NCBI RefSeq assembly: GCF_017873335.1 | Contig: NZ_JAGGKB010000001.1 | Location: 248,001-312,000, forward strand | DNA length: 64,000 nt | From: Thermococcus stetteri | GTDB lineage: Archaea > Methanobacteriota_B > Thermococci > Thermococcales > Thermococcaceae | Reading direction: 5' to 3' | Shown: one piece after another, positions 15,602 through 20,472 of the stretch | Numbering within the stretch: the stretch's first letter is position 1 | How the letters are laid out: every line of letters starts with the position of its first letter | Translations under genes and position numbers: made by a program | The notes under the pieces: model-generated | The model's input: only the letters and a program-made list of their open reading frames with translations | Told to the model about the DNA's origin: nothing | The model's database searches: none

Positions 15602-17827
15602 ATGGTTGTGAAAGACTGTCCAGAGTGCCACGGAACGGGTAAAGTAAAAGTTGGCGAGAAGGAGTGCCCGGTGTGTGGGGGCTGGGGCTACGTTCCGGCT
15701 GACTTCAAGATCGGAGACAAGCTGAAGGGTTACAGGAATCTGGATCATCTGGGAGTCGAGGATGAGGTTGATGAGATACCATGCCCAGAATGCCATGGGA
15801 AGGGAACAATCCCGGTTTATGATACCTGCCCTGTTTGTGGCGGAACCGGGAAGGTTCTCGCCTGTGACATCTGCGGGAAGATAAAAGGCCCATGGGAGCC
15901 GGGCATGGAAACAACCTGGGTCTGTCCGGACTGCCTTAGGAAGTACAAGGTCGTCTACATCCTCGACAAGACCTGCGATTATGAGGACGTTGAAGTGGGA
16001 AGCCTGTACAAGGGTACAATTGACAGGGTGGAGCGCTTCGGCGTCTTCGTCAAGCTCAATCCGCACGTTACGGGCCTCATCAAGAGGAAAGACCTCCTCG
16101 GCGGGAGAGAGTACAAGCCCGGCGACGAGATAGTCGTTCAGGTTCTGGACGTTAGACCCGACAAGAGGGAAGTCGACCTAATCGAATCGGCTCTCAAGCA
16201 CTACAAGACCGTCGTTATCAGAAAGGAGCTCCCAGTTACGCCAATAGCCGAGCTGAGCAAGGACATGGCAGGAAAGACGGTCAGAATACAGGGAAGGATT
16301 ACCCAGGTTCAGGTTACCGGTGGACCGACGGTGTTCACGATAACCGACGGAACAGGAATAACCTGGGTAGCGGCCTTCGAGGCTCCAGGAGTTAGAGCCT
16401 ATCCAAACATCAACGTGGGAGACATAGTCGAGGTCATAGGCAAAGTGGCGTTCCACTCGGGCGAGATACAGATCGAAGCAAGCGACATGGCAAGGCTCTG
16501 GGGACCGGACGCGGCGAGGGTGAAGCAACAGATAGAGGCAGAACTTGACAGGAGGGCACAGCCGGAAGACGTTGGCTTCCTAGTGGAGAGTGAAATCCTC
16601 GAAAAGCTCAAGCCGAAGATAATGAAGGCAGCCTTCATGATAAGGCGCGCTATCCTCGAGGGCAGGCCGATACTCCTGAGGCACCACGCCGATGCCGACG
16701 GCTACACATCCGGCCTCGCGCTGGAATACGCAATAGTGCCTCTCATCGAGAAGATCTCACCGGATCCGCAGGCTAGATGGAAGCTCTTCAAGAGAAGGCC
16801 GAGCAGGGCGCCCTTCTACGAGCTTGAGGATGTCCTCAAGGACATAATCTTCATGGTCGAAGACCACGAGAAGTTTGGCGATCCCTTACCGCTCCTCGTC
16901 ATAGTGGACAACGGCGGAACGAGCGAGGACATTCCAGCTTACAAGCGCATTCGCGCCTACGGAGTTCCAATAGTTGTCATAGACCACCACGATCCAAGAG
17001 AGTGGGTGAGTGAGGACAAGGCCGAGGTTGACGACTACGTCGATGTGCACGTCAACCCACACCACGTGAAGAGAGGCTACTACGAGCTAACGGCCGGAAT
17101 GCTCGCCACCGAGGTTGCGCGCTTCATCAACCCAGAAGTTGAGGACAAGATAAAGCACCTGCCAGCCATAGCCGGAACCGGCGACAGGAGCAAGGCACCG
17201 GAGTTCTACCAGTATCTCGAGATAGCGAAGAAAGCCAAGGGCCTCGACGAGGAAGACCTGAAGAAGATAGCTGAGGTAATTGACCACGAGGCCTACTTCT
17301 GGAAGTTCATGGACGGACACGGCATTATCGACGAAATACTCCTTCTGACCGGAAACCTCCAGAGGCACCGCGAGCTTATCAATGCCATCTACCCTGAAGT
17401 CAAAGAGAAGCAGGAGAAGGCTCTGAAAGCCTCTCTGCCTCACGTGAAGAGCGTCGTCCTGCCGAACGGCATAAGGTTCAACACGATAGACGTTGAATTA
17501 TTCGCGCCGAAGTTCAGCTATCCCTCACCGGGTAAGCTCTCCGGCTTGATCCACGACCACTTCAAGGAGAAGTACGGCGAGGACTCGCCGATACTCACTT
17601 TAGCATACGGCCCAGACTTCACGGTGGTAAGGGCCAGCGATGGAATGGCAGCCTACGGCTTTGACCTCAACGCTATAATTCCGAAGCTCCAGGAGAAGCT
17701 ACCATCAGCCGGAATCGAGGGCGGTGGGCACAGCTACGCCGGCTCGATAAAGTTCTTCGAGGGCATGAGGAAGGAGGTTCTTGAGGAGTTCGCAAAGGAA
17801 GTCGTGAAGCTGAAGAAGATTTCCTGA
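15602..17827 (+). CDS. RecJ-like DHH phosphoesterase with DnaJ zinc fingers, S1 and OB domains
   Basis: A 741-residue archaea-specific protein (COG1107 type). Order of parts: paired CxxCxGxG motifs at about 5-85 (CPECHGTGK, CPVCGGWG, CPECHGKG, CPVCGGTG), another zinc site CPDC, an S1 RNA-binding domain (about 125-195, KGTIDRVERFGVFVKL), an OB fold (about 215-300), then the DHH domain with RHHADADGYTSG, VIVDNGGTSED and VIDHHDP, and a DHHA1 domain ending GGGHSYAGS. This suggests a manganese-dependent 5' exonuclease acting on DNA or RNA. It differs from the shorter GINS-associated nuclease. Substrate not proven. Confidence 0.9.
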   Translation: MVVKDCPECHGTGKVKVGEKECPVCGGWGYVPADFKIGDKLKGYRNLDHLGVEDEVDEIPCPECHGKGTIPVYDTCPVCGGTGKVLACDICGKIKGPWEPGMETTWVCPDCLRKYKVVYILDKTCDYEDVEVGSLYKGTIDRVERFGVFVKLNPHVTGLIKRKDLLGGREYKPGDEIVVQVLDVRPDKREVDLIESALKHYKTVVIRKELPVTPIAELSKDMAGKTVRIQGRITQVQVTGGPTVFTITDGTGITWVAAFEAPGVRAYPNINVGDIVEVIGKVAFHSGEIQIEASDMARLWGPDAARVKQQIEAELDRRAQPEDVGFLVESEILEKLKPKIMKAAFMIRRAILEGRPILLRHHADADGYTSGLALEYAIVPLIEKISPDPQARWKLFKRRPSRAPFYELEDVLKDIIFMVEDHEKFGDPLPLLVIVDNGGTSEDIPAYKRIRAYGVPIVVIDHHDPREWVSEDKAEVDDYVDVHVNPHHVKRGYYELTAGMLATEVARFINPEVEDKIKHLPAIAGTGDRSKAPEFYQYLEIAKKAKGLDEEDLKKIAEVIDHEAYFWKFMDGHGIIDEILLLTGNLQRHRELINAIYPEVKEKQEKALKASLPHVKSVVLPNGIRFNTIDVELFAPKFSYPSPGKLSGLIHDHFKEKYGEDSPILTLAYGPDFTVVRASDGMAAYGFDLNAIIPKLQEKLPSAGIEGGGHSYAGSIKFFEGMRKEVLEEFAKEVVKLKKIS

Positions 17828-17901
17828 TATTCTTTTCTTTCTCGGCTTTGTTCCTGCAAACGTTTTTAACCTTCGGGACAACCCACAGAGAGGTGGTCAC
17901 T

Positions 17902-18180
17902 ATGAGAGGAGACCTAATAAGGATTCTGAGCTCTGTTGAAGAGAAGGCAAACGAACTGAAGCTGGAGGGCTTTGAGCCCGACGTCGTTCTCGTCGGGAAG
18001 GAAGCTTATGAGTTTATAAAAGAACAGGTAAATGAGGAGTTTGGCGGAGAGGAGGAAGTTCTTGAGCTATCTGGCCTCAAGGTAAGAATCCTTGAGGAGC
18101 TCGGCGGAGATGCGGTTGTCATTGACACCGAGGCCCTTGGATACGCCCCGGCGGCGAGGCGCTTCAGGGTTGTTCCATAA
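17902..18180 (+). CDS. Family 4 encapsulin-like A-domain protein
   Basis: A 92-residue acidic protein starting MRGDLIRILSSVEEKANELK, with PDVVLVGKEAYEF, LSGLKVRILEELGGDAVVIDT and a short basic C-terminus. From memory it matches the small Thermococcales protein family represented by P. furiosus PF0899, whose crystal structure resembles the A-domain of the HK97 phage capsid and which has been classed as a family 4 encapsulin. GTGGT is placed just before the ATG. It follows the DHH gene by 74 bases and overlaps the convergent CitG-like gene by 17. Whether it forms a shell, and with what cargo, is unknown. Confidence 0.65.
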   Translation: MRGDLIRILSSVEEKANELKLEGFEPDVVLVGKEAYEFIKEQVNEEFGGEEEVLELSGLKVRILEELGGDAVVIDTEALGYAPAARRFRVVP

Positions 18181-19090
18181 CTCCCCACGCCTTTCCATCC
18201 ACCACTTTGATTTTCAGGCCCGCAAGGGCCAAAACGCTGAGCGAAGCCGCCATTATATCCGCCAGGCTTCCAGGGTTTCTTAGGTCACCCTTCTCCCTGA
18301 GGAAGGCGTCGAACTCTTCAAGAGTCAGCCCCCCATCGAGCACTGCCTTAGCCTTCTCCATCACGAGCTTTGCCTCTCCCTTCCCGGCCTTCCTGACTAT
18401 GAGCGTGTCCTCACTGCTTGAGAGAAGCTCCAAAAAGGCCCTAACAACAGCGTCTTCCAATGGAAGTTCCTTTATCAACTGGAAGAGCCTCTCGGCCAGG
18501 GTGTAGGTTAGCTCGTAGCCTGTGAGCCACTCACAGAACACCAGCTCCCTTCCACAGCTCATCTCAGCCAGCATCCAGAGGTTAACTCCGTCCCTGAAAA
18601 GCTCGTTGAAGGCCTCATCTGAATAGACATCGTACTGAACTCCCTTGACCATCCCCTTGGGGTTCGCCATCCTGATCGCCTGATAAAGGTCCATCGTGTC
18701 CCTTACCGTCGAGGCCCTGATTAGTTCCTTCGCCTTCTCCCCTGCTTCCATAACGTTCTTTGAGAGAGAAGCGCCCATCGCGAGCGGTATCCCTAGAACC
18801 AAAACCCCGAAGTTGGGGTTGGCGTCCTGAGTTTCCTTCGAGACCTTCACGGCCCGCTTTATCAGCGTCCCAATGCCGGTCTCGGAGGGAACCAGCTCTC
18901 CTCCCCTGATCAGCTCCGCCGTTCTCACGGCCTCGTAATAGACGCTGACGAGTGCGGTATCCGCAAAGAGGAAGTTGTAGATCGTGAGGTCTCTGAAGTC
19001 GTGGTAGCGGTTCACGTTGCCCGGCTTGGGCAGGGTCGCCTCAAGAAGGGGCCCCAGCAGAAAGGCCCTGACTATTCTCCACCTCTCCAT
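18164..19090 (-). CDS. Triphosphoribosyl-dephospho-CoA synthase-like protein (CitG/MdcB family)
   Basis: A 308-residue protein with the CitG/MdcB family signatures LEATLPKPGNVNRYHD near residue 17, NFGVLVLGIPLAMG in the middle and NPGSLADIMAA near the end. Bacterial members make the prosthetic group of citrate or malonate lyase from ATP and dephospho-CoA. No citrate or malonate lyase genes are nearby, so the archaeal role is uncertain. It is the last gene of a leftward group and overlaps the encapsulin-like gene tail to tail. Confidence 0.78.
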   Translation of the reverse strand: MERWRIVRAFLLGPLLEATLPKPGNVNRYHDFRDLTIYNFLFADTALVSVYYEAVRTAELIRGGELVPSETGIGTLIKRAVKVSKETQDANPNFGVLVLGIPLAMGASLSKNVMEAGEKAKELIRASTVRDTMDLYQAIRMANPKGMVKGVQYDVYSDEAFNELFRDGVNLWMLAEMSCGRELVFCEWLTGYELTYTLAERLFQLIKELPLEDAVVRAFLELLSSSEDTLIVRKAGKGEAKLVMEKAKAVLDGGLTLEEFDAFLREKGDLRNPGSLADIMAASLSVLALAGLKIKVVDGKAWGVMEQP

Positions 19091-19781: not shown

Positions 19782-20363
19782 TTAATAATCATTGCGAATC
19801 CTGACGTTGCCCACAACGTGGTGTATCCTCACGAGAACGGGCTTTCCCTTTCCAGTGTGGGCGTTCTCAACACTTCCGATGACGTCCTCGGTGCTGGGCT
19901 GGACTGAGAAGTTGGCCGGGAGTGAGATGTCCACGTTCCCGACGACGTCCTTGATGATAACATCACCCTCCGCGTGTATGGAAACGTTGCCAATGACATC
20001 CTCAATTCGGTACTCTGCCGGTGCCCTCACGGAAACGTCGCCGACCACGTCCTCAAAGACCGGCCTCGTGGCGTTAACATCCACGCTGACGTCCCCAACG
20101 GTCTCTCGAACCCAGAGATCGGCGAGCCCTCTTCCAACTTCAATAACAACGCCGCTCACGTTAGTCTTAACGATTTGAACATCGCCCACTAGCTCCCTCA
20201 CGATGACCGCTCCCGCATCGAAGGTTCCTAACTCCCTCAGCGGACTGGCTTCCTTTTTGTGAATCTAGGCTCCACGAATCACAACCATCTCAACCGCGCC
20301 CACGAGGATAACCCCTAGGGCAACTACCACTATTAGAGTGAGAACTCCACCACGTTTGAGCAT
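19782..20363 (-). pseudogene. Membrane-anchored VG(D/N)V-repeat protein with in-frame amber codon
   Basis: The gene begins at ATG 20363 with MLKRGG and one hydrophobic helix (about 7-25). Codon 33 is TAG (20265-20267), after which the same frame continues for 160 codons. The body has about seven repeats of 16-20 residues centred on (V/I)G(D/N)V, for example ETVGDVSV, DVVGDVSV, DVIGNVSI and DVVGNVDI, which should form a beta-solenoid resembling DUF4097-like or bactofilin-like folds. A GTG at 20201 could start a shorter soluble form. The stop may be a mutation or a sequence error. Function unknown. Confidence 0.7.
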
Positions 20364-20472
20364 GCTTTCACCCATTCAGTATAGTCAGTCCATCGTATAA
20401 AGCTTACGCTTTTGAAAAGTTAGGAGGACGCAAACTGCCATCCGCGGTGGAGTAAATCAGAAAGAAAAAGGT

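Follow-up and report, generated by a model that had tools for sequence, protein, structure and literature searches.

The window analysed here, the whole stretch of 64,000 nucleotides of Thermococcus stetteri DNA, contains a short forward-strand gene (17902..18180) for which the original prediction was a stand-alone, PF0899-type family 4 encapsulin-like shell protein, with one of its neighbours as possible cargo. The locus raises two questions: whether the product belongs to that family, and which enzyme, if any, it serves.

Identity and predicted fold of the 4A protein

The open reading frame begins with an ATG at 17902, its stop codon ends at 18180 and the product has 92 residues. A Shine-Dalgarno sequence, GAGGTG, can be read at 17890..17895 (+) in front of it; the motif of Thermococcus onnurineus is GGDGRD (PMC5316973). 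The product scores 155.8 bits with the NCBIfam model NF041190 (encap_f4a, cut-off 90), which places it in family 4A, versus only 41.9 bits with the sister model for 4B and 23.5 bits with that for 4C. Pfam ENCP4 (PF08967) gives 121.9 bits at a cut-off of 31.4. In a sequence search of the PDB, PF0899 of Pyrococcus furiosus (2PK8) is matched with 95.5 bits and E=1.5e-26 and is the only solved relative reached. The two proteins agree in length, fold and NCBIfam class. The identification as family 4A is far beyond chance, and both the PF0899-type assignment and the HMM search proposed for its verification, against family 4 encapsulins and 2PK8, are borne out by clear matches. The gene is under strong purifying selection, with dN/dS of about 0.05-0.09 against the two nearest orthologues (dN 0.029 and 0.024, dS 0.32 and 0.51). 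KtrA, matched weakly by sequence (E=0.0011) and absent among the listed fold matches, was taken as a chance hit.

An AlphaFold2 model was calculated from an alignment of 23 sequences (mean pLDDT 82.5); it is uncertain for roughly the last nine residues. A fold search with this model ranks 2PK8 first (E=3.7e-8, TM 0.84), and with 92 aa the protein suits the A-domain-only type of about 100 aa. Behind 2PK8, HK97-fold capsids and encapsulins account for about 35 of 49 further PDB matches, each of them weak (E 0.5-3, TM about 0.3-0.55). The predicted fold agrees with 2PK8 and resembles the A-domain of HK97 capsids, as had been proposed. In a comparison by hhalign with archaeal family 1 encapsulins the probability was 3.5%, with the alignment outside the A-domain and both profiles shallow. 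Since this profile comparison is not significant, the link between family 4A and the encapsulins is carried by the fold alone.

ENCP4 genes were found in all 82 Thermococcaceae genomes that are at least 80% complete (92 of 94 if incomplete genomes are counted) and in none of 17 genomes from the class's other families. Andreas and Giessen, who described these proteins, report that a species normally has a single gene of each type, 4A and 4B; they tied 4A genes to hydrogenase or OsmC operons and recognised orphans as well (PMC8346489). The T. stetteri genome has two ENCP4 genes, the 4A gene of the window and a 4B gene adjoining deoC at G000:C1:521805. The latter belongs to the DeoC/GAPDH-linked type and shares the paralogous ENCP4 domain, but it overlaps the upstream deoC and lacks the promoter-like box that the 4A gene possesses. 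The 17902-18180 product is a fresh orphan member of an already published family.

A family 1 encapsulin is not encoded in the T. stetteri genome and is ruled out as a shell partner of 4A. Such proteins were found in 10 of 94 Thermococcaceae genomes (L143-L152); in those that were read, the shell protein is fused to an N-terminal helical stretch, which we take to be ferritin-like.

A promoter-like sequence and a variable upstream flank

A putative TATA box, TTTTTAA, lies at 17863..17869 (+), and beside it, just 5', an A-rich, BRE-like stretch (gcaaac, 17856-17861, +) can be read. When at least six of seven matches at 22-48 bases before the start codon were demanded, 53 of the 65 distinct regions upstream of 4A genes had a TATA-like box, compared with 14% in shuffles and 8/65 in a control stretch. 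It occurs whatever gene stands upstream. Among the 4B genes, of which those linked to deoC start inside its end, such a box is present in 4 of 20 distinct upstream regions. In T. onnurineus, transcripts start about 27 nt downstream of the centre of the TATA box and have a median 5' UTR of 12 nt (PMC5316973); by analogy, a transcript start of the 4A gene near 17888-17895 would fit. Because a TATA-like box precedes most 4A starts, the gene probably forms a single-gene unit in most loci. The description as stand-alone was right, and it is sharpened by this conserved promoter-like sequence of its own. An Rfam scan found nothing; the same holds for scans for bacterial promoters and terminators, which do not cover archaeal promoters.

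The gene upstream (15602..17827, +) encodes a RecJ-like DHH nuclease of the HAN type, in which Pfam finds S1, OB-fold and DHH domains and a weak match to a DnaJ-type zinc finger. Its score with NF053577 (HAN_nuclease) is 654.1 bits, under the cut-off of 840. As described originally, it is on the same strand as 4A, and its stop codon at 17827 leaves a gap of 74 bp. We judge this nuclease to stand outside the 4A system.

Across 67 4A loci, the neighbourhood comparison proposed for the Thermococcales reveals varying upstream genes next to a citG flank that is constant outside Pyrococcus. The nearest same-strand upstream gene encodes MarC in 23 loci, OsmC in 14, a protein of cluster c13 in 11, the alpha subunit of SHI hydrogenase in seven and HAN in three, with others in the remainder. 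The three HAN loci are that of the window and those of two near relatives (L034 and L035). In Pyrococcus, most 4A genes follow SHI alpha, in contrast to the window's gene, which follows HAN. The OsmC-type loci of other Thermococcus species (PMC8346489) encode an orthologous protein and have the same downstream citG block as the window; OsmC or MarC is near 4A there, whereas in T. stetteri both are on other contigs: osmC is found on contig C3 together with its usual left-hand neighbours (aminotransferase, GATase, radical SAM) and marC on contig C2. The SHI operon (C1:538767-542896) is on the same contig as 4A at a distance of about 276 kb, and no ENCP4 gene follows it. The window's 4A gene does not occupy the usual operon position downstream of hydrogenase or OsmC genes. 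Since OsmC, MarC and SHI are all encoded elsewhere in the genome, we place a rearrangement breakpoint directly upstream of 4A.

Two observations concern other loci. Cluster c13 (L046 and others) comprises lipoprotein-like proteins about 290 aa long that match no Pfam family, often encoded after MarC. In L033, whose 4A protein agrees with 2PK8 over the compared residues, SHI alpha is separated from the 4A gene by several opposite-strand open reading frames.

Possible roles of the 4A protein

Conservation in the protein is highest in helix 1 (residues 2-21), with a mean entropy of 0.41 bit versus 1.03 for helix 2 among 63 distinct proteins. In the same set the polar residues Glu13, Glu14, Lys15 and Glu18 around helix 1 are invariant and point to several faces. 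This pattern suggests that helix 1 is a binding surface, although part of its conservation could reflect core packing. In P. furiosus, GAPDH is reported to be stably complexed with its family 4 partner (cited in PMC8346489); according to the same paper, the dimer in the 2PK8 crystals is possibly an artefact of the tag.

Because of the conservation of helix 1 and the reported complex with GAPDH, we tentatively favour, at somewhat less than even chances, a small orphan A-domain protein that would act in trans, as a homo-oligomer, in an accessory role to an enzyme encoded elsewhere. It would form a homo-oligomer, either a dimer or a ring-like facet, in which the nearly invariant helix 1 may contact other copies of the protein or a soluble complex of redox or metabolic enzymes. 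The oligomer may stabilise or cluster its partner, encoded elsewhere in the genome; a closed shell would be possible but not needed. SHI hydrogenase and OsmC are candidate partners, since their genes are adjacent to 4A in other Thermococcaceae; the HAN nuclease and the CitG-like enzyme are poor candidates. The conserved proximity of 4A genes to those for OsmC and MarC in many Thermococcus, and to the SHI genes in most Pyrococcus, could reflect a real functional link that was merely separated in the present lineage.

A self-assembling true, if small, shell whose enclosed enzyme (OsmC or SHI hydrogenase) is encoded elsewhere in the genome appears unlikely. Facets or shells were hypothesised by those who defined the family (PMC8346489), and most of the weak PDB matches behind 2PK8 are to HK97-fold capsids and encapsulins. 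However, the remaining domains from which HK97 shells are built are missing from 4A (PMC8346489), the crystals gave only a dimer, and no cargo gene keeps a fixed position across the 67 loci.

It is rather doubtful, too, that family 4 has a common origin with A-domain-like proteins that stand alone in tailed viruses and are not known shell proteins, which would make the cellular form a domesticated adaptor instead of a truncated encapsulin. Among predicted viral structures, the best matches to the 4A fold are free-standing tailed-virus proteins of 70-130 aa, including a 128-aa protein of Bacillus phage SP-15 (E=7.9e-4, TM 0.70) and a 76-aa protein of HFTV1. These outscore every viral protein named as capsid, for which E is no better than 0.12. 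The gene for HFTV1 gp06 (76 aa, L153:2843-3073) is located between those for terminase and portal. Among 483 frames of HFTV1, gp06 is the top match to the 4A profile (E=0.0084, with none of about 1,950 shuffles as good); a GFEPD turn is common to both. The main text of the paper on the HFTV1 virion structure does not mention gp06 (PMC12494034), which speaks for the shared origin. Against it, the single-sequence model of gp06 is poor (pLDDT 69), 2PK8 is missing among the matches listed for the reciprocal fold search, the equation of A0A410N6Q3 with gp06 is made from length and sequence pattern, and the small proteins of SP-15 and BSP38 were searched for but not placed in their genomes. Searches of PHROGs and of phages by tblastn with the 4A protein gave nothing useful, and a scan of IMG/VR with the 4A alignment gave no matches. 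The small, uncharacterised gp06 of this archaeal tailed virus is like the family 4 A-domain proteins in its sequence pattern and, inferentially, in its predicted fold. The likeness to small viral proteins is a new lead that provides a testable alternative origin for family 4; if it is true, the idea of shell and cargo would be wrong for this family.

Adjacent genes as possible partners of 4A

The 3' end of the 4A gene is overlapped by 17 bp, as originally noted, by a convergent, antisense gene for a CitG-like protein of the triphosphoribosyl-dephospho-CoA synthase family (18164..19090, -; PF01874, 183.3 bits). This linkage is the most constant of all: the CitG-like gene is next downstream of 4A in 58 of 59 loci outside Pyrococcus, and in the 59th it follows an inserted stretch; overlaps amount to 8, 11 or 17 bp. 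A functional partnership with 4A is nevertheless very improbable, and CitG is unlikely as cargo, since its gene is on the opposite strand and not co-transcribed and is not adjacent to 4A in any of the eight Pyrococcus loci. Moreover, 58 of 213 other convergent gene pairs likewise share 4-20 bp at their 3' ends. Because such overlaps are frequent and genes further downstream are also common to the loci, so that the whole block is co-conserved, we read the linkage as synteny.

In L091, a 393-aa open reading frame on the opposite strand directly follows the 4A stop codon and parts it from citG; it is probably a mobile element. Further downstream in the window (19782-20400, -), a gene of cluster c8, which encodes about 224-290 aa in many relatives, is cut short to a 139-aa open reading frame: a stop codon in frame follows an N-terminal membrane-like segment, and the gene has probably decayed.

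That the HAN nuclease is the partner in the T. stetteri lineage is scarcely credible, and it is rejected as cargo: it precedes 4A closely and on the same strand in the near relatives too, but in no more than those 3/67 loci, the TATA box parts the two genes, and a breakpoint lies between them, because the loci have the right flank, from 4A through citG onwards, in common but differ in the left flank. With HAN so rarely upstream and citG convergent, the proposal that a neighbour may be the cargo is not supported.

Published guesses at the cargo of family 4 lean largely on gene adjacency. Across the 67 loci, 4A keeps a promoter-like sequence of its own and survives parting from each of the proposed enzymes. 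Since it stands alone in this way, its neighbours do not reveal the enzyme that it serves, if any. Consequently, its partners are to be sought by interaction rather than by position.
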